The notes under the pieces were generated by a model that was not told where the DNA came from, did no database searches, and saw only the letters and a list, made by a program, of their open reading frames with translations. A stretch of DNA of 64,000 nucleotides from an uncultured Hyphomicrobiales bacterium (GTDB lineage Bacteria > Pseudomonadota > Alphaproteobacteria > Rhizobiales > Xanthobacteraceae). Numbering within the stretch: position 1 is the first letter of the stretch; each line of letters starts with the position of its first letter. The stretch is from NCBI GenBank assembly GCA_903878085.1, contig CAIRGJ010000049.1, positions 1-64,000 on the forward strand, written 5' to 3'. Of this stretch, positions 42,146 through 62,319 are shown one piece after another. The translations under genes were made by a program, and so were the position numbers.

Positions 42146-42718
42146 ATGTCACGCTTGTCCGATTCCCAACTCGTCGTTCTTACCGCCGCCTGCCAGCGAT
42201 CCGAGGCTTGCGTGTTTCCAGTCACCGCCAAGCTCAAGGGCAATGCCGCCGGCAATGTGCTCAAGAGCCTGCTGAAGAAGAACTTGATCAAGGAGGTCCG
42301 CGCCAAGCGCGACGACACCGTCTGGCGTCACGACGAACAGCACGGCCGCATGACGCTCGTTGCCACCAAGGCCGCATTCGCCGCGCTCGGCATCGACCCG
42401 CGCGACGAGGCGGAAGATGCTGAGACCAAGGCGGCAGATGAGGCGCCAGCCAACGTCGAGGCCGAACCGAATACGCGCCCGAAGACACCCAAATCCACGG
42501 AACCGAAAGCGCCCCGCAAGGACAGCAAGCAGGCACAACTCATCGCGATGCTGCGTCGAGCCAAGGGCGCCTCCATCGACGAGGTCGTCAAAGCCCTGGA
42601 ATGGCAGCCGCACACGGTTCGAGGTGCCATCGCAGGCGCCCTGAAGAAGAAGCTTGGGCTCGACGTCACATCTGAAAAAGATGAGAAACGCGGGCGTATC
42701 TATCGAATTGCAGAATAA
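42146..42718 (+). CDS. DUF3489 protein with two winged-helix-like regions
   Basis: A 190-aa protein. Residues 1-85 (SRLSDSQLVVLTAACQR; VLKSLLKKNLIKEVRAKRDD) look like an HTH domain, a Glu/Pro/Lys-rich linker follows, and 125-190 is the DUF3489 domain (KQAQLIAMLRRAKGASIDEV, TVRGAIAGALKKKLG), also HTH-like. Phage or integrative-element DNA-binding protein of unknown role. A terminator lies 139 bases after the stop. Confidence 0.75.
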   Translation: MSRLSDSQLVVLTAACQRSEACVFPVTAKLKGNAAGNVLKSLLKKNLIKEVRAKRDDTVWRHDEQHGRMTLVATKAAFAALGIDPRDEAEDAETKAADEAPANVEAEPNTRPKTPKSTEPKAPRKDSKQAQLIAMLRRAKGASIDEVVKALEWQPHTVRGAIAGALKKKLGLDVTSEKDEKRGRIYRIAE

Positions 42719-42856
42719 CGCCAGTAGGTTCACGCAAGTGTGAAGCAGGTGCGCGCATTTGGCTACCTTGCCCGAGAGCCAAGGTTGATTATCTTAACGC
42801 ATAAGCTGGACAGCCCCTCAGTCCCCCCTGAAATTGTCCGGCAACAGTAGTGAGAA

Positions 42857-42892
42857 ATGGTCCCCGGTGCGTATTTGCCGGGGGCCATTTTT
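42857..42892 (+). terminator. Terminator after the DUF3489 gene
   Basis: ATGGTCCCCGG (42857-42867) pairs with CCGGGGGCCAT (42878-42888), with one G-T pair and a 10-base loop, followed by five T. Confidence 0.85.
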
Positions 42893-42923
42893 GTATGAAA
42901 CAACTGGGACCTATCTGTTTGCC

Positions 42924-43523
42924 ATGTTGTGTGACCGCCGAACGATTTTGTTACTCGCCGCCTCCCTCTCGGTCGCCGGCGGCTCAGCGCGAGGCGAGAC
43001 CATGAGTCAAAAATCGGCCACCATCGACGATCTGAGCCGTGAGCCGCCCCTCTCTGCGATCGGCAGCCGCTGGCAGTTGTTCACCGACCAGGTGATGGGT
43101 GGCGTCTCCAATGGGACGATGGTGCGCGAGACGGTAGCGGGCCGACCGGCCATTCGTATGCGGGGCAACGTCAATCTCGAAAACAACGGAGGCTTTGTGC
43201 AGATTGCGATTGATCTTTCCCCCGATGGCAAGGCCGTGGATGCCAGCCCTTGGCGAGGGATCGAGCTCGATGTGTTCGGCAACAGCGAGGAATACAGCAT
43301 TCACCTGCGCACCGAGGATCTCACTCTACCTTGGCAGTCCTACCGGCAGAGCTTTCGTGCAGATCCGCAGTGGCGGACGATCACGTTTCGCTTTCAAGAC
43401 TTCGTGCCATATCGGACCGAGACGGCGCTCGATACCCTCCGCCTACGACGCATTGGCGTGGTTGCGATCGGCCGCGCGTTTTCGGCGGACCTTGCCATCG
43501 GCGGGTTGAGATATTTGGCCTGA
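42924..43523 (+). CDS. CIA30-like (NDUFAF1-type) exported protein
   Basis: A 199-aa protein starting with a hydrophobic segment (MLCDRRTILLLAASLSVAGG) that ends at SARGETMSQ, a likely signal peptide. The rest is a galactose-binding-like beta sandwich of the CIA30 family: WQLFTDQVMGGVSNGTM, then GNVNLENNGGFVQIAIDL, WRGIELDVFGN and ITFRFQDFVPY. In mitochondria CIA30 assists complex I assembly; bacterial roles are uncertain. It sits among phage genes, in the opposite direction, and its last 81 bases overlap the 3' end of the methyltransferase gene, so it may be a captured host gene. ATG 42924 lies after the upstream terminator. Confidence 0.75.
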   Translation: MLCDRRTILLLAASLSVAGGSARGETMSQKSATIDDLSREPPLSAIGSRWQLFTDQVMGGVSNGTMVRETVAGRPAIRMRGNVNLENNGGFVQIAIDLSPDGKAVDASPWRGIELDVFGNSEEYSIHLRTEDLTLPWQSYRQSFRADPQWRTITFRFQDFVPYRTETALDTLRLRRIGVVAIGRAFSADLAIGGLRYLA

Positions 43524-44747
43524 CCCGTTGAACGGTTGAGCTGTTTCCGCGTGCCGCGCTTCGCCCCCGTTCACCTCCTGCCATCGCTGAACGATGACAT
43601 CGACGTATTTCGGATCGAGCTCGATAAGCCGCGCGCGACGCCCAGAGTGTTCCGCCGCAATCAGCGTCGTACCCGAGCCGCCGAATGGATCGAATACGAT
43701 GTCGCGGCTCTTGGATGAATTGCGGATCGCCCGCTCGACCAATGCCACCGGCTTCATCGTCGGGTGTAAATCATTCTTGTGCGGCTTATCGAAGAACCAG
43801 ACATCGCCCTGGTCGCGGGCGCCGCACCAATAATGATCGGTACCGTTCTTCCAGCCATACAAGATCGGCTCGTATTGGCGCTGGTAGTCCGAGCGTCCGA
43901 GCGTGAAGGTATTCTTGGCCCAGATCACAAAGGTCGACCACTTACCGCCGGCCTCGCGGAACGCATTCTGCAGCCGGTCGAGCTCCGAGGATGACATGCA
44001 GATGTATATGGCGCCCTTGGTGAGTGTGAGGATATTGACGCAGGCGTCGTAGAGCAGCGCGCCGAAGTCTTCGCCGAGTGCATCATTGAGGATTGGACGG
44101 TTCTTACCTCGTAATTTGTCTTTAGCCGAGTTGGCGTAGTTCACATTGTAGGGCGGGTCCGTGAACGCCATGTCGGCGAGTTCACCGCCCAGCACCTTCT
44201 CGACATCGGCCAGAACCGCGGCGTCGCCGCACAGCACACGGTGCTCGCCGCATATCCATAGATCGCCAGGACGGCTGACCGGCTCGGCCGGCGGCTCGGG
44301 TGCTTCATCGAGATCCGCCGCCTCGTCATTAGTACCGGCCAGAAGGCGATCGATTTCGGATTCGTCGAAGCCGAGCAGTTCGAGATCGAATGCTTCCTCT
44401 TTCAGCGTAGCCAGCTCGGCCGCCAGCATCTCATCATTCCAACCTGCGTTGGTCGCGATCTGGTTGTCCGCGATCATCAGCGCGCGGCGCTGGGTCGGCG
44501 TGAGGTGCGACAGCACAATCACCGGCACCTCGTGCAGCCCCAGTTTGCGTGCAGCAAGCACGCGGCCATGGCCGGCGACGATCACGCCGTCGTCACCCAC
44601 CAGGACCGGATTGACGAACCCGAACTCGGCGATCGACCCCGCGATCTGCGCCACTTGCTCCTCGGAATGGGTGCGGGCATTGCGCGCATGCGGGATCAAT
44701 CGCTCGAGCGGCCAGCGCTCGACGGTTGCTGGAAATAGCGGTGTCAT
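43443..44747 (-). CDS. ParB-domain DNA adenine/cytosine-N4 methyltransferase
   Basis: A 434-aa phage methyltransferase. The N-terminal ParB/Srx domain (residues 1-110) starts VERWPLERLIPHARNARTHS and has GDDGVIVAGHGRVLAARKLG. The beta-class methylase domain has motif IV TDPPYNVNYA before motif I FDPFGGSGTTLIAAEHSG. Such fusions methylate phage DNA and protect it from host restriction or regulate packaging. No matching restriction enzyme is adjacent in its direction. Its C-terminal 27 codons overlap the convergent CIA30 gene. Confidence 0.9.
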   Translation of the reverse strand: MTPLFPATVERWPLERLIPHARNARTHSEEQVAQIAGSIAEFGFVNPVLVGDDGVIVAGHGRVLAARKLGLHEVPVIVLSHLTPTQRRALMIADNQIATNAGWNDEMLAAELATLKEEAFDLELLGFDESEIDRLLAGTNDEAADLDEAPEPPAEPVSRPGDLWICGEHRVLCGDAAVLADVEKVLGGELADMAFTDPPYNVNYANSAKDKLRGKNRPILNDALGEDFGALLYDACVNILTLTKGAIYICMSSSELDRLQNAFREAGGKWSTFVIWAKNTFTLGRSDYQRQYEPILYGWKNGTDHYWCGARDQGDVWFFDKPHKNDLHPTMKPVALVERAIRNSSKSRDIVFDPFGGSGTTLIAAEHSGRRARLIELDPKYVDVIVQRWQEVNGGEARHAETAQPFNGSGQISQPADGKVRRKRAADRNHANAS

Positions 44748-44819
44748 GCTCTGTCAGTCGGGCTACACTGTCGATCGCAGCCCCTTCCCTGAGGGGTTGC
44801 TCGACGAAAGTGGGATTAG

Positions 44820-45737
44820 GTGGCAATCAAGCTGCTTGTCGCGGTCACGGACCACGAATGGTTCGAATTACTGCGACAAAAACCCGACCTCACAGAGGTC
44901 AATTTCTGGGCCCCGTCCGGCGCTAATTTCAAGGCGCTGGAGGAAGGCGAGCTGTTCCTATTCAAGCTCCACGCACCTCGTAATTTCATCGTGGGAGGCG
45001 GCATATTTGCTTACGCAAACGCTCTTCCCTGTTCGCTTGCATGGGAGGCTTTCGGAGAAGGAAACGGCGCGCGAACACTGCATGAGATGCGAGCTCGTAT
45101 TGCCAAGTATCGGAAGACGGATCCAGGCGATCGAAGCGACTTTCAAATTGGGTGCCGGATCCTGACCCAGCCATTTTTTCTCCCAGAAGACGAATGGATT
45201 CCGATGCCGGAGAGCTGGTCACCCAATATCGTGTCGTTCAAAACGTATACAACCGAAGAATCAGACGGCCTTAAGCTCTGGGATGCAGTCAGCGATCGGA
45301 TCAGCAGAATCGACTCTGGTAGCAGCAGCAACGCCGAGCGGTTCGGTGAGCCTCGACTCGTGAAGCCTCGTCTTGGCCAAGGTGCATTCCGAATTCTTGT
45401 GACCGATATCTACGAGCGCAAGTGTGCTATCACCCAGGAGAGGACGCTGCCGGCTCTCGAAGCCGCACATATTCGACCCTACAGCGATGGTGGAGCACAC
45501 GAAGCCAGAAATGGCCTACTACTCCGGCGTGACATTCACAGTCTTTTTGATTTGGGATACGTGACCGTCACACCCGAATTGCGCTTTGAGGTCAGCCGGC
45601 GAATTCGCGAAGAGTTTGACAACGGCCGCCACTATTACGCACTGCATGGAAGGCAGATAGAGCCTCCCAAAAATGTCGCTTTGCGGCCCGATGTGGCGGC
45701 GCTCTCCTGGCATAATGACAACTGCTTCAAGGGGTGA
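44820..45737 (+). CDS. HNH endonuclease with PUA/EVE-like N-terminal domain
   Basis: A 305-aa protein. Residues 1-150 form an EVE/SRA-like (PUA-superfamily) beta barrel: NFWAPSGANFKALEEGELFL, then HAPRNFIVGGGIFA, the pattern of modified-base or RNA readers. Residues 200-290 are an HNH domain: YERKCAITQERTLPALEAAH, then IRPYSDGGAHEARNGLLLRR and DIHSLFDLGYVTV. Reader-plus-HNH fusions are modification-dependent restriction enzymes in several known cases; this function is inferred. GTG 44820 start. It is divergent from the methylase gene and is the first of four rightward cargo genes. Confidence 0.8.
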   Translation: MAIKLLVAVTDHEWFELLRQKPDLTEVNFWAPSGANFKALEEGELFLFKLHAPRNFIVGGGIFAYANALPCSLAWEAFGEGNGARTLHEMRARIAKYRKTDPGDRSDFQIGCRILTQPFFLPEDEWIPMPESWSPNIVSFKTYTTEESDGLKLWDAVSDRISRIDSGSSSNAERFGEPRLVKPRLGQGAFRILVTDIYERKCAITQERTLPALEAAHIRPYSDGGAHEARNGLLLRRDIHSLFDLGYVTVTPELRFEVSRRIREEFDNGRHYYALHGRQIEPPKNVALRPDVAALSWHNDNCFKG

Positions 45738-45808
45738 TCGCTTCAACAAGCTGCGCGGACCTGGTTTGAACGTCGATGTCGCGTGACCAGGTTATTGGAG
45801 ATTACAAC

Positions 45809-46417
45809 ATGACAGATGCAACCGTATTGACTGATCGTTTTGATCGAGCCCTACTGTACGCTACGCACGTCCACGGTGGCCAAGTGCGCAAAGGGACGCC
45901 TATTCCCTACATTGCACATCTGCTCGCGGTCGCTGCGACAGTGCTCGAATATGACGGCTCCGAGGACATGGCGATTGCCGCCCTGCTACACGACGCTGTC
46001 GAGGATCAGGGTGGCGAACCCCGCCTCTCAGACATTCGTAACCGGTTCGGCGATCGAGTTGCGGATATAGTTCGCTCCTGCTCAGACACGGTCGTCAACT
46101 CGTCAGCTGGTCAGCAAAAGGAAGATTGGCACACCCGCAAGACACGCTACGTTGAACACCTCAATTTGATCGACCAAGAAACGCTTTTAGTGTCGCTGTC
46201 CGACAAAATCCACAACGCTCGCTCGATTCTTCGTGATCTGCGTAAACCAGAAATTGGTAAATCGGTCTGGGATCGATTTAAAAACTCGAGGAAAGACACG
46301 CTTTGGTATTATCGAGAGCTTGCGAAGTCGTTTCAGAAGCGCCTGAAGGATCAGTCGGCCAAGATGCAGCTGGCAGATGAGCTAAGCGAAATTGTCGACG
46401 TTCTAGAGAGGACGTGA
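45809..46417 (+). CDS. Stand-alone HD-domain (p)ppGpp hydrolase-like protein
   Basis: A 202-aa protein consisting only of the HD domain of RelA/SpoT enzymes. It has VHGGQVRKGTPIPYIAHLLA with the first His, AALLHDAVEDQGG with the HD dyad and following Glu-Asp, and LVSLSDKIHNARSILRDLR with the distal Asp. There is no synthetase, TGS or ACT domain, so it resembles small alarmone hydrolases (Mesh1-like). Such enzymes also act as antitoxins of toxSAS toxins; no toxin gene is adjacent. ATG 45809 has GGAG upstream; 72 bp after the HNH gene. Confidence 0.82.
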   Translation: MTDATVLTDRFDRALLYATHVHGGQVRKGTPIPYIAHLLAVAATVLEYDGSEDMAIAALLHDAVEDQGGEPRLSDIRNRFGDRVADIVRSCSDTVVNSSAGQQKEDWHTRKTRYVEHLNLIDQETLLVSLSDKIHNARSILRDLRKPEIGKSVWDRFKNSRKDTLWYYRELAKSFQKRLKDQSAKMQLADELSEIVDVLERT

Positions 46418-46460
46418 TCTTTATTGGCTGATGAGCCATTCGTGAAGCCATAGCGAACTG

Positions 46461-47171
46461 ATGCCAATGCCTGAGGATCGCCTCGATCATCTCAAACGTT
46501 TCTATTCAGCGCTGGATAGCCTTACCGAGAAGCTCGGCGGCCCTCAGCTGCTGGAGAATTGCAATGGCCGAATGGATTGGCCGCAGCGGGGCGTCTATTT
46601 CTTTCTTGAAAACAATGAGATCCGAAAGCACTCGGGCACTGGTCTGCGCATAGTGAGGGTCGGAACGCACGCACTCAAAAGTGGCTCTCGAACAACACTC
46701 TGGCATCGCCTCTCACAACATCGCGGTACGATGAACAACGGCGCTGGGAATCACCGCGGATCGATTTTTCGATTACATGTTGGTGGCGCTCTCTTGACCC
46801 GCGATTCTAAGATCGAATGCACATCTTGGGGCGTCGGCCATACAGCTCAACCGGACACCCGGCCACGAGAAACGTATCTCGAAAAGCTCGTTAGCCAAGT
46901 TATTCGACAAATGCCATTTGTTTGGGTCGGCATCGACGATCCCGCAGGGCCAGAAAGCAAGCGGGGCTACTTGGAACGCAATGCTATTGCATTGTTGAGC
47001 AACTACCGTAAGCCGCCCCTCGATTTAACGTCAGAACAATGGCTTGGCCGCGCCTGTCCTTCCGAGAGAGTACGAAGTTCTGGGCTCTGGAATTCAAATC
47101 ACGTCGATGAAGCATATGACCCATTATTTCTCGACGATTTCGAGCGTGCAGTGGCGCAAGGCGTACGATGA
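46461..47171 (+). CDS. GIY-YIG-like nuclease
   Basis: A 236-aa protein. The start of the domain is PQRGVYFFLENNE (GVYFF as a GIY variant), then LRIVRVGTHALKSGSRTTLW (VRVG as a YIG variant) and HRLSQHRGT with the basic catalytic positions; Glu144 region ESKRGYLERNAIALL may provide the metal ligand. Proteins with this GVYFF-VRVGTHA-LW-RLSQHRG pattern are widespread and uncharacterised. Its TGA overlaps the ATG of the next gene (ATGA), implying translational coupling. Confidence 0.65.
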   Translation: MPMPEDRLDHLKRFYSALDSLTEKLGGPQLLENCNGRMDWPQRGVYFFLENNEIRKHSGTGLRIVRVGTHALKSGSRTTLWHRLSQHRGTMNNGAGNHRGSIFRLHVGGALLTRDSKIECTSWGVGHTAQPDTRPRETYLEKLVSQVIRQMPFVWVGIDDPAGPESKRGYLERNAIALLSNYRKPPLDLTSEQWLGRACPSERVRSSGLWNSNHVDEAYDPLFLDDFERAVAQGVR

Positions 47172-47827
47172 AGATCGTCATTCAGTGCGCGGGATCCAAA
47201 AACCCTTCAGCCGGTCATTTCATGACAGCCGCGGGCCGGAGGATTAAGTTCATAGCACGGCCGGATATTGCACCTCGAAGTGCAGAATTTCTCTTCGCCC
47301 GCCCGGATGACGAGTCAGATCAAAACGGACGGTCCTGGCGCGATCTTGTTGTTGATTACAATAAACGCCTAGGAAGCAATCCTTTTGGTTTGGTGCCGGC
47401 CTACCTTCTTTACTCAAACGATGCCTATCGGGCCCTCGTGAGCCGGTATGGTTCGGAGAGCGTGTTTGTGCTGTCCGCTGGTTGGGGCCTCATCCGGTCC
47501 GATTTTCTGACCCCTTGGTACGACATTACATTCAAGCTAGACGCCGACGCGTATAAGCGCCGAAGGCGGGGCGATATATATTCTGATTTCCACTATCTGA
47601 CGGATTCAAACGAGGAGGTCATGTTTTTCGGCGGCAAGGATTATCTGCCGTTCTTTTGTCAATTGACCGATTCGGTTCGCGCGCGTCGTATCGTCTTCTA
47701 CAATTCCCGTATTACACCTTCGGTGCCTGGCTGTGTTCTCAAGCGTTACGAGACGACCATGCGCACTAATTGGCACTACGCATGTGCGAGGGATTTTGCA
47801 GGGGGTAAGATCGATGCGACTGATTAA
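47168..47827 (+). CDS. YaaA/DUF6884-like protein
   Basis: A 219-aa protein starting MKIVIQCAGSKNPSAGHF, the beginning of the YaaA/DUF6884 fold, and with VFVLSAGWGLIRSDFLTPWY in the middle, equivalent to the LSA-x-(Y/W)-GL motif of that superfamily. YaaA binds DNA and protects it from oxidative damage; the DUF6884 branch is often found in phages and defence-rich regions. Coupled to the GIY-YIG-like gene by a 4-bp overlap. AT-richer than the head genes, suggesting separate origin. Confidence 0.65.
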   Translation: MKIVIQCAGSKNPSAGHFMTAAGRRIKFIARPDIAPRSAEFLFARPDDESDQNGRSWRDLVVDYNKRLGSNPFGLVPAYLLYSNDAYRALVSRYGSESVFVLSAGWGLIRSDFLTPWYDITFKLDADAYKRRRRGDIYSDFHYLTDSNEEVMFFGGKDYLPFFCQLTDSVRARRIVFYNSRITPSVPGCVLKRYETTMRTNWHYACARDFAGGKIDATD

Positions 47828-48128
47828 AGTCGATGCCTATCGCCTGTTGGTAACAGGCTGCCGGATACCAGTTCCGTTACGGCCCACCTGCACTACAGAT
47901 TGTCCGCGTTTATAGGGCTAGTCGAGCTCTTCGGGTGGTACCTGGTAACTCAGATTTTGCGGCTGACGGTAGCGATGTTCCGGGCCGTTGCCCCCCGCAT
48001 AGGATTTTCCGCCAGGGAGGACCCGCGACTTCGCTCGCGCGACTCTCGCGATCATGCCAACGAGACTAACTTTTTTGACCGAATCTGTCACAGCGAAAAG
48101 TGTCCTCGGACAATTTTCGATCCTGTTC
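47828..48128. other. Junction between cargo genes and the early operon
   Basis: No gene is supported. A minus-strand frame (48214-47918) ends with GGNGPEHRYRQPQNLSYQVP and could be a small protein or the decayed end of one, but it overlaps the DUF6362 gene. The region marks the right border of the cargo insertion. Confidence 0.45.
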
Positions 48129-48572
48129 TCAGATTCTTTCTGCTTGTGCTCGCTCAACAACGAACTGGCGTGACCGCTTGCTCGGGACTTTCCGTCCATT
48201 GAGTCGCAGCACAATCACGCACAGTGCGTAGAGCCAGTGCTGGTGAGCCGCAGAGCGCACGAGACCGACCTTCCAACAGACCGCCTTCCAACGCTCGCCG
48301 GTTGCCCGTAGCCAGACGATCTTTGCATCCACCGGGTCAAGCCATGCAAGCCAACTCAGCGTCTCCTCCATCCGGCCGATAGCATCCGGCGCCGGTGGAG
48401 GCAGCCGCATCCGCCGCGGCTCTTGCCCAATACGATCAGCAAACTCGACGACCATCGTTGGCCATGTGTTGAAGTGACCCGGAACACGGACCTCGGGCAG
48501 TCTATTCATCACATCGGCGGCTTCGACGAATCGCTCCTCGACCAATGTGGGTGTCCAGCGCATCTCAGCCAT
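48129..48572 (-). CDS. DUF6362 phage protein
   Basis: A 147-aa protein, MAEMRWTPTLVEERFVEAAD, then VMNRLPEVRVPGHFNTWPTM and a C-terminal HTH-like region (RWKAVCWKVGLVRSAAHQHW) ending in basic residues. This pattern is the DUF6362 family of alphaproteobacterial phages, perhaps a sigma-like or late-gene regulator. Last gene of the leftward early operon. It starts within the 3' end of the preceding gene. Confidence 0.75.
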   Translation of the reverse strand: MAEMRWTPTLVEERFVEAADVMNRLPEVRVPGHFNTWPTMVVEFADRIGQEPRRMRLPPPAPDAIGRMEETLSWLAWLDPVDAKIVWLRATGERWKAVCWKVGLVRSAAHQHWLYALCVIVLRLNGRKVPSKRSRQFVVERAQAERI

Positions 48573-48762
48573 TGCTCGTCTCCGTCTTTTGGTTCTTTCC
48601 ATAGAGCTTCTCGCCGAGCTGGCGGATCAATTCGCGCTCTGGCCATGTGAGCCGTTGATCGTCGACGGAGACCGCGAGCAACCCCTGCTCACGCCAGCCA
48701 TCCTCCTTGACCTTCTCGGGCGGACGCCGCTCGCCGCCATAGCCGCGTGGTGTCCACATCAT
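48565..48762 (-). CDS. Small phage hypothetical protein
   Basis: A 65-aa charged protein (MMWTPRGYGGERRPPEKVKE; LTWPERELIRQLGEKLYGKN). It overlaps the following DUF6362 gene by 8 bp and the preceding gene by 4 bp, as expected in the compact early operon. Function unknown. Confidence 0.6.
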   Translation of the reverse strand: MMWTPRGYGGERRPPEKVKEDGWREQGLLAVSVDDQRLTWPERELIRQLGEKLYGKNQKTETSNG

Positions 48763-60354: not shown

Positions 60355-60675
60355 ATGCCATCGTCACTGGGAGACAAGATGAGGAAGCATCGCCTGGAAA
60401 AGGGCTATTCCCTGGACAAACTGGCGGAGCTAACCGATTCCAGCAAAAGCTACCTTTGGGAGCTCGAAAACCGGGATACCCGTAAGCCATCCGGCGAGAA
60501 GCTGACGCGAATCGCCGAAGCCCTCTCCGTAACGACGGATTACCTGCTCGACGAGTCTGCTGAACCCAATGAAAAAGTAATCAGGGAGGCCTTCTTCCGG
60601 AAGTTCAACAAGCTTGATCCCGAAGACCAGAAGAAGATCGAACAGATGGTCGATGCCTGGAGAAAAAAGAGTTGA
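60355..60675 (+). CDS. XRE-family phage repressor (ImmR-like)
   Basis: A 106-aa repressor. The HTH is GYSLDKLAELTDSSKSYLWE (residues 17-36), followed by a helical C-terminal region (EDQKKIEQMVDAWRKKS) for dimerisation. No RecA-cleavable domain is present; relief would come from the metalloprotease encoded next, as with ImmR/ImmA of ICEBs1. It should bind O1 and O2. Its stop overlaps the TTG start of the protease gene. Confidence 0.85.
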   Translation: MPSSLGDKMRKHRLEKGYSLDKLAELTDSSKSYLWELENRDTRKPSGEKLTRIAEALSVTTDYLLDESAEPNEKVIREAFFRKFNKLDPEDQKKIEQMVDAWRKKS

Positions 60676-61586
60676 AGCTGCCGACAACACCAGAAGGATG
60701 GGCGATCCACCTGTCGAAGCTCGTGAAAATATTTCACGAGGCGCACGGACTCGACAGGTTTCCCATTAAGGTAGCGTCGATCGCAACAGAGTATTCGCGA
60801 AACGTCTTCCCCAATGCCCCTATCACCAAGGTGGAGGGTCTCAATCTGTCAGCAAAGTTCGAGGGAATGCTGCTGCCTCGTCCGAACGGAAATGGCGAGT
60901 GGGGCATCATCTTCAACAGCTCGATCACCTCCAAGGGCCGCATCAACTTTACGCTTGGGCACGAGCTCGGCCATTACCTGTTGCACCGCCATCTTTCGCC
61001 TGAAGGATTTCGATGCTCAAGCCGCGACATGCTGGATTGGAAATCAGAGCACGGCCAAATCGAGGCTCAGGCGAACACGTTCGCTTCTTTTCTCTTGATG
61101 CCGCTCGACGACTTCCGGGCGCAAATCCGCAACCAAGAGATCACCATGGCGCTGATGCGCCATCTATCGGACCGCTATGAGGTATCGATCACGGCCGCTA
61201 TCCTCAAATGGCTCGACATAACCGACAAGCGGGCGATGATCGTCGTCAGCAAAGATGGTTTCATCGACTGGGCTTGGGGGAGCAAACGGCTCTTCAAATC
61301 AGGGATCTATTATCGCGCTCGTCAGGAAACCGTGCCGTTGCCAGAGCTTTCTCTTGCCGCTCGGCGAGATCCGTCGATCGACGCTGAAATCGGTTTCGTC
61401 CATCCGAAGAGCGTATGGGTTGGCAACGAAAGAGTGCATGAGATGACTGTCTTTGCTGCCAAGAGCGACATGACAATCACTCTTCTGCTTTATCCAAACG
61501 ACGGTGCGACCTACCTGCGTAGAATGCCGGATATCGATGAAGAAGATACGCCGGACACGTATGACCAAATCCATAGGCACGGCTAG
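60672..61586 (+). CDS. ImmA/IrrE-family metalloprotease
   Basis: A 304-aa protein. The zinc motif is FTLGHELGHYLLHRHL (HExxH) near residue 100, followed by ANTFASFLLMPLDDFRAQI, the second family block. It presumably cleaves the XRE repressor and triggers induction. It starts with TTG 60672 inside the stop codon of the repressor gene (TTGA overlap), so the two are translationally coupled. Confidence 0.88.
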   Translation: MKLPTTPEGWAIHLSKLVKIFHEAHGLDRFPIKVASIATEYSRNVFPNAPITKVEGLNLSAKFEGMLLPRPNGNGEWGIIFNSSITSKGRINFTLGHELGHYLLHRHLSPEGFRCSSRDMLDWKSEHGQIEAQANTFASFLLMPLDDFRAQIRNQEITMALMRHLSDRYEVSITAAILKWLDITDKRAMIVVSKDGFIDWAWGSKRLFKSGIYYRARQETVPLPELSLAARRDPSIDAEIGFVHPKSVWVGNERVHEMTVFAAKSDMTITLLLYPNDGATYLRRMPDIDEEDTPDTYDQIHRHG

Positions 61587-61593
61587 CCAATCA

Positions 61594-62319
61594 ATGCCGA
61601 AAATAGGCACTATTGCGTTCTTGGTTTGCTTTACCTGTGTGTCTGCATATGCCGCTGATTTAGAAGGGGTACCAAGAATCGTTGATGGCGACACACTCGT
61701 CATCAAAGGAACAAAAGTTCGCCTCGAAGGAATCGACGCTCCCGAGACCGATCAGATTTGCCTCAATGCAAAGGTTGCTCGATGGACTTGCGGTATCGAT
61801 GCCCGCAACCAACTCGCGGCGCATATCGCTGGTCGAGTTATTAGCTGTTCCTCGAAAGGCATTGATGTTTACAGACGCACTTTGGCGATATGTACACTTT
61901 CAACGGAAGACTTGAACGGTTGGATGGTCCAACAAGGTTGGGCGCTCGCTTATGTTAAATATTCATCCTCATACCGACAGGCCGAAGAAGATGCGCGAAC
62001 GAACCAGCGCGGGCTATGGCAAGGCGCTTTCATTGCGCCGTGGGATTGGCGTCATAAAAACAATAAGACGATTATCCTTGGCGCTCTCAGCGTTCCAATT
62101 GATGCACAGAAATTTCTGTTAGGTCCTTCTGCGACCGAAGGAGCACCATCACCTGAATGTACGATCAAAGGAAATATCAGCCAAAACGGCGAACGGATTT
62201 ATCATATTGAAGGCCAACGATTTTATCCCAGAATTAAAATGGATAAGGGTGGTGGCCGGCGATGGTTCTGCACACCTGAGGAAGCTGAAGCGGCGGGATG
62301 GCGCAGAGCACTGAGGTAG
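61594..62319 (+). CDS. Secreted thermonuclease (SNase) family protein
   Basis: A 241-aa protein. The signal peptide MPKIGTIAFLVCFTCVSAYA ends at AYA-AD. The SNase domain follows: PRIVDGDTLVIKGTKVRLEG, then IDAPETDQICLN and ...RRTLAIC with the catalytic Arg region, and GLWQGAF. The C-terminus is the short Cys-containing domain (CTIKGNISQNGERIYHIEGQ to RWFCTPEEAEAAGWR). It would degrade DNA or RNA outside the cytoplasm. ATG 61594 is chosen for the clean signal peptide; ATG 61561 would overlap the protease gene. Low-GC codon use differs from the neighbours. Confidence 0.88.
   Translation: MPKIGTIAFLVCFTCVSAYAADLEGVPRIVDGDTLVIKGTKVRLEGIDAPETDQICLNAKVARWTCGIDARNQLAAHIAGRVISCSSKGIDVYRRTLAICTLSTEDLNGWMVQQGWALAYVKYSSSYRQAEEDARTNQRGLWQGAFIAPWDWRHKNNKTIILGALSVPIDAQKFLLGPSATEGAPSPECTIKGNISQNGERIYHIEGQRFYPRIKMDKGGGRRWFCTPEEAEAAGWRRALR

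Follow-up and report, generated by a model that had tools for sequence, protein, structure and literature searches.

Do four adjacent genes on one strand of a phage genome form a single defence system? The question is raised by positions 44,820 to 47,827 of contig CAIRGJ010000049.1 from an uncultured Hyphomicrobiales bacterium, of which the first 64,000 nucleotides (the window) were analysed. Four rightward open reading frames (ORFs), A to D, reside there in a prophage. From the letters alone, they had been read as an HNH nuclease, an HD alarmone hydrolase, a GIY-YIG-like nuclease and a YaaA-like protein that together make up one undescribed system. Our analysis leads to another partition. In our best explanation, which we hold with middling confidence, the genes lie on an insertion with three independent cargoes: A, B, and a C-D module that would act as a unit. 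This module would combine a GIY-YIG endonuclease with a YaaA-superfamily protein and correspond to a long-D variant of PDC-M57, a candidate defence system of PADLOC.

Insertion of the four genes and separate distribution of A and B

The foreign origin of the four-gene strip is directly shown by flank-matching contigs that lack the insert. Comparison with the window using blastn revealed that two related viral contigs, L202 and L203, carry 177 bp at the position of a 3,194-bp segment of the window. Homology ends at 47943 and restarts at 44748. The two flanks are 83% and 88% identical in L202. In L203, identity is 94% over 6.4 kb on the right and 89% on the left, over just 119 bp because of the contig end. 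The G+C content (GC) of the insert is 0.536, as compared to a mean of 0.621 (standard deviation 0.025) for equal-length stretches. No stretch of this length in the window has a lower value, in agreement with the AT-richness claimed at the outset.

The interval between the flanking methylase and DUF6362 genes is a cargo slot, because it is short in most related phages and holds other genes in some. Among 61 related phage contigs surveyed, 47 carry both flanking genes in measurable order, and the slot is shorter than 600 bp in 35 of these 47; only this count was used, since slot lengths are unreliable where the methylase aligned partly (L205, L207, L212, L254, L258 and perhaps others). In L265, the slot is bordered by homologues of the N-terminal part of the window methylase (71% identity) and of the DUF6362 gene (42%). 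It contains an A homologue at 69% identity, without B, C or D. In L236 and L254, Fic-like and HigA-like ORFs, assigned by eye, occupy the slot on the opposite strand. Empty sites, slot survey and L265 thus agree with the earlier view of an inserted cargo.

Two features of the locus favour a single four-gene system, as the original prediction had it. The spacing is short (38 bp between A and B, 43 bp between B and C, a 4-nt overlap between C and D) and compatible with one transcript, and the four genes have a similar low GC (0.523 to 0.548). The distribution of the genes argues against it. Loci around C relatives were searched by BLAST (1e-4). Among 106 loci, C was found in 104 and D in 67, and A and B in none, within the available DNA, many loci being shorter than the requested flank owing to contig ends. 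A and B were never found together in the 24 loci retrieved for either gene, and C and D were absent from all 24. In genome G338, the A and C families are on different contigs, as are an A fragment and B in G126. Together with the slot of L265, where A is found without the other three, this strongly disfavours the four-gene system. We rejected it and regard it as extremely improbable. The co-occurrence that had been proposed as a check therefore fails for A and B and holds for C and D.

C and D travel together. A DUF6884-like gene was found on the same strand within 200 nt of C, or fused to it, in 90 of the 104 C loci. The scan used hidden Markov models (HMMs) of three DUF6884-like subtypes, which replaced a stricter regular expression. 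L001 and L006-L015, which are short duplicates of the window or of L016-L024, were excluded from the C-locus scans. L016, L019, L021 and L022 duplicate L037, L068, L066 and L063; without these doubled loci the count is 87/100. L107, L108 and L115, which seem to be copies of one phage, and L032, L048 and L055, from one contig, were kept. L018 and L117 have no C ORF. Among the 14 unpaired loci, the DUF6884-like gene is further off or overlapping in L042, L055, L093 and L080, and about 2 kb away in L004 and L005. Contig ends truncate L113 and L115. In L022 and L063, one Reyranella locus, an intact C ORF is followed only by a degenerate-looking D start. Near C in L002, L070, L104 and L112, the HMMs found no DUF6884-like gene. 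Fusions exist in both orders, with the DUF6884-like part first (L017, L085, L114, L116) or C first (L027, L076). Simple ORF calling in the C loci showed no third gene conserved beside the pair.

The module is sparse. C is present in 7 of 385 genomes of the class, the source genome included. Four of the seven carry long D, G244 and G226 have a short DUF6884 gene before C, and G339 has a degenerate D start. A BLAST search with the window D found the long form in 5/372 class genomes, again including the source; it directly follows C in four and is cut by a contig end in the fifth. Among 60 relatives, the source genome included, four carry C, one by a weak match; the same-genus genome G026 has a C homologue. 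The genome_contigs collection yielded 322 C relatives and viral_contigs 13, with the limits that the former may include prophages and that collection sizes differ. The best 80 of the 322 are titled Proteobacteria, Acidobacteria, Chloroflexota, a Thermoplasmata archaeon and others. A single-protein search of viral_contigs with C gave no match, nor was any found in the phages collection. C also occurs in nine plasmid records, of which eight are haloarchaeal. In related phages, C is also found downstream of a portal homologue (L105, L106, L109, L110, L111) or after a large-terminase homologue (L113). Because of these several positions, such phages have probably gained C more than once.

Predicted activities of the C-D pair and of A and B

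The original prediction recognised no named system. The C-D pair is already catalogued in PADLOC-DB 2.0.0, as candidate PDC-M57. C matches PDC-M57B at 2.1e-79 and D matches PDC-M57A weakly, at 5.2e-4. Both parts of the candidate are present, a PDC-M57B match and an adjoining PDC-M57A/DUF6884-type protein. From sequence, C-D thus appears to be a long-D variant, which differs by its C-then-D order and by the 219-residue form of D. Short DUF6884 proteins that precede C match PDC-M57A far better (3.8e-39 in L111, 2.9e-43 in L067). We found no paper naming PDC-M57. An archaeal survey (PMC12988326) treats other PDC candidates, and its main text contains no "M57".

D is a YaaA-superfamily (DUF6884) protein, as judged from its family matches and motifs. 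Among 48 members of the D-type family, 45 match DUF6884, 44 PDC-M57A and 46 the DpdC model (threshold 0.001). PMC11701544 defines the CxxxK and LSAxxG motifs of DUF6884 and relates this family to YaaA. Both motifs are found in D (Table 1) and support its initial description as YaaA-like. D has them in common with DpdC, YaaA and YfjM-type DUF6884 proteins, and differs from these in being part of a two-gene unit with a nuclease. The DpdC domain is given as DUF6884 (PMC11888242), and the enzyme is described as hydrolysing dPreQ0 to dADG (PMC12839542). Only the DpdC-like part of the Dpd 7-deazaguanine system was seen here, with no search aimed at DpdA or DpdB. The data do not support a general tie of C-D to genes for queuosine or deazaguanine, as BLAST found QueC beside C in 1/105 loci. 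In the viral contig L114 (4701-8226), a QueC gene overlaps a DUF6884-C fusion, and a SIR2-like gene comes next. A SIR2-like gene also follows the fusion in L017.

C is a probable GIY-YIG-fold endonuclease. It matched no Pfam family, GIY-YIG included, and its profiles gave no match to PDB sequences (best E 0.076). Profile comparison with GIY-YIG gave a weak match. The predicted structure shows the beta-beta-alpha-beta-alpha core of GIY-YIG endonucleases; the nearest structural match of the model, a modest one, is UvrC. The fold first suggested for C is in line with this model. In an alignment of 66 rows, the GxY residues and R83 are invariant and E172 is found in 65. The tyrosine of the YIG motif is an arginine, R66, in all of them. 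As compared to the UvrC N-terminal domain, R.Eco29kI and Hpy188I, C stands apart by the long stretch inserted between its Arg-bearing and Glu-bearing helices and by its conserved partner gene. The nearest working analogue found for C-D is CMoRE, described as a single-protein GIY-YIG type IV restriction enzyme (PMC12923530). By that description, CMoRE resembles C in the GIY-YIG nuclease domain, which it uses against phage DNA. It differs in that it carries a sensor domain of its own and that its motif is GIYxY-YIG, whereas C has GVYxF and RVG and a separate travelling partner.

Matches to HNH_2 and to PDB entry 6yex (Table 1) bear out the assignment of A as an HNH nuclease. Entry 6yex is named in the paper on VcaM4I, an EVE-HNH enzyme (PMC7897488). 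A resembles VcaM4I in the HNH domain and differs in its N-terminal domain, which was not matched; a profile search of the PDB with its ca 165 residues found no related solved chain. A modified-base reader role for this domain is a lead only. A is matched in 57/372 class genomes, of which only seven, the source included, match over at least 290 residues; among the matches listed, most others are confined to the HNH part. A different second HNH protein directly follows A homologues in L263 (4929-5861) and L184 (7433-8371). The A-like HNH protein of L266 (2898-4253) is extended at its N-terminus by a further domain, EVE-like by eye; Pfam gave only HNH_2 at 0.01 for this protein.

B is, by homology, a stand-alone small alarmone hydrolase with a RelA/SpoT-type HD domain, as first proposed. 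The HD_4 match and the nearest chain, 7qoe, agree, and the next-nearest PDB chains are other stand-alone proteins of the HD alarmone-hydrolase type. B has matches in 341/372 class genomes; most of those listed are frames of about 700 residues, the size of RelA/SpoT. Its relatives in L198 and L200 are surrounded by genes that look housekeeping by eye.

A possible base-guided nuclease and its rivals

How would the pair work? In our best explanation, after uptake of the ca 3.2-kb insertion by the prophage, in the slot between the methylase and DUF6362 genes, D would bind DNA and flip an unusual base into a pocket formed by CxxxK and LSAxxG, as its family suggests. This base might be a modification of rival-phage DNA, or one left by the chemistry of D itself. 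By analogy with its own family, C would cleave at the place recognised by D and incoming DNA would be destroyed. As the pair showed no conserved third neighbour, self-protection would be type IV-like, the host being without the mark, rather than due to a cognate methylase. A bolder reading, in which we have more doubt than confidence, is a two-part immune module: the YaaA-superfamily enzyme would chemically alter or excise an unusual base in foreign DNA and pass the site on to a GIY-YIG nuclease dedicated to it. If true, phages would carry in C-D a base-chemistry-guided restriction system directed at their rivals, and the YaaA/DUF6884 fold would gain a functional home. The presence of the pair at several genome positions in such phages is consistent with phage-phage competition. 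The four-gene guess narrows to a gene pair whose relatives occur in both bacteria and archaea, and the coupling of a little-understood family to a nuclease makes the biochemical hypothesis concrete.

The main rivals to base-guided restriction are repair and homing. C-D could be a DNA-repair module on mobile elements, in which D would recognise lesions, abasic sites for example, and C would incise in the manner of UvrC. YfjM is reported among the interactors of abasic and RNA-base lesions (PMC11701544), and the nearest structure to the C model also speaks for it. We nevertheless consider repair unlikely. The module is sparse, unlike core repair (7/385 class genomes). In addition, 148 of the 282 ORFs neighbouring C were picked and 117 scanned with Pfam, and the first 25 of the 80 families obtained include none for repair. 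C-D could also be a selfish pair, in which a DNA-binding protein assists a free-standing homing endonuclease; it would cut phages without it and copy itself into intergenic sites. Homing seems less likely still and indeed quite improbable, because the sites vary, not being one cut site, and the partner is nearly obligate. The preponderance of C relatives in genome_contigs over viral_contigs, within the limits given above, also weighs against homing, whereas the GIY-YIG-like fold of the C model, the intergenic location of the insertion, which is cleanly absent from related phages, and the other positions of C would fit it.

A last alternative, which overlaps our best explanation, also assigns functions to A and B. 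Three separate weapons would share one slot: A would restrict modified DNA, B would remove, as a counter-defence, the alarmones made by toxSAS-type abortive systems of the host or of rival phages, and C-D would restrict otherwise. The nuclease domain of A, nearest to the entry named with VcaM4I, and the stand-alone hydrolases nearest to B point in this direction. Against it, the putative reader domain of A matched no related solved chain, and B could be an ordinary gene in view of the housekeeping-looking surroundings of its relatives. Nor was an alarmone synthetase noticed next to B, with no search aimed at one. We view the three weapons as possible, somewhat less probable than our best explanation.

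Coordinates and neighbouring genes

Table 1 Features of the locus (window positions).
Feature	Position	Strand	Description	Basis
Gene A	44820..45737	+	HNH nuclease, 305 aa; proposed independent cargo	Pfam HNH_2 5.5e-12; PDB 6yex 1.4e-6, HNH part only
HNH_2 domain of A, residues 202-250	45423..45569	+		Pfam
Gene B	45776..46417	+	Predicted small alarmone hydrolase (HD_4), 213 aa; proposed independent cargo	Pfam HD_4 1.1e-21; PDB 7qoe 4.5e-47
Gene C	46461..47171	+	Probable GIY-YIG-fold nuclease, 236 aa	PADLOC PDC-M57B
G44-V45-Y46 of C	46590..46598	+	GIY position	G44 and Y46 in 66/66 aligned rows
R66-V67-G68 of C	46656..46664	+	YIG position, Tyr to Arg	R66 and G68 in 66/66 rows; placed by secondary structure
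R83...H87 of C	46707..46721	+	Putative catalytic Arg and His, helix after hairpin	Each in 66/66 rows; helix 80-88
E172 of C	46974..46976	+	Putative metal-binding Glu	65/66 rows; helix 167-179 of model
Gene D	47168..47827	+	Long DUF6884/YaaA-like protein, 219 aa; overlaps C by 4 nt	DUF6884 2.8e-5, under the curated Pfam cut-off; PDC-M57A and DpdC models
CxxxK motif of D, C7-K11	47186..47200	+		C7 and K11 at least 97% conserved, 62 rows; motif per PMC11701544
LSAxxG motif of D, residues 102-107	47471..47488	+	LSAGWG	At least 97% conserved, 62 rows; motif per PMC11701544
Inserted segment	44749..47942		3,194 bp, GC 0.536	blastn of L202 and L203 against the window
Left flank	43443..44747	-	Phage ParB/DNA methylase gene	phrog_498 2.8e-158
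Right flank	48129..48602	-	Phage DUF6362 gene	PF19889 1.6e-39
DUF3489 ORF	42146..42718	+	Left of methylase	ORF list, Pfam
CIA30-domain ORF	42834..43523	+	229 aa, between methylase and DUF3489 ORF	Pfam

Left of the cluster, portal and capsid genes were identified by Pfam. A terminase gene on the same side, and primase and RuvC-type genes on the right, were recognised by eye only. The four genes were said to point against all their neighbours. This holds for the immediate flanks, methylase and DUF6362, which are leftward, but not for the DUF3489 and CIA30 ORFs further left, rightward too. A site scan of 44600-48300 found no promoter-like site upstream of A; over the whole interval it gave one promoter-like site (2.1 in shuffled sequences) and five terminator-like sites (3.9 in shuffled sequences). 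The CIA30 position may be a second slot, as related phages have different ORFs there. Finally, a second AT-rich rightward group is found at the right end of the window (60355-62319), with a 1-kb GC down to 0.518. It encodes an HTH_3 regulator, an IrrE-like M78 peptidase and an SNase-like nuclease.
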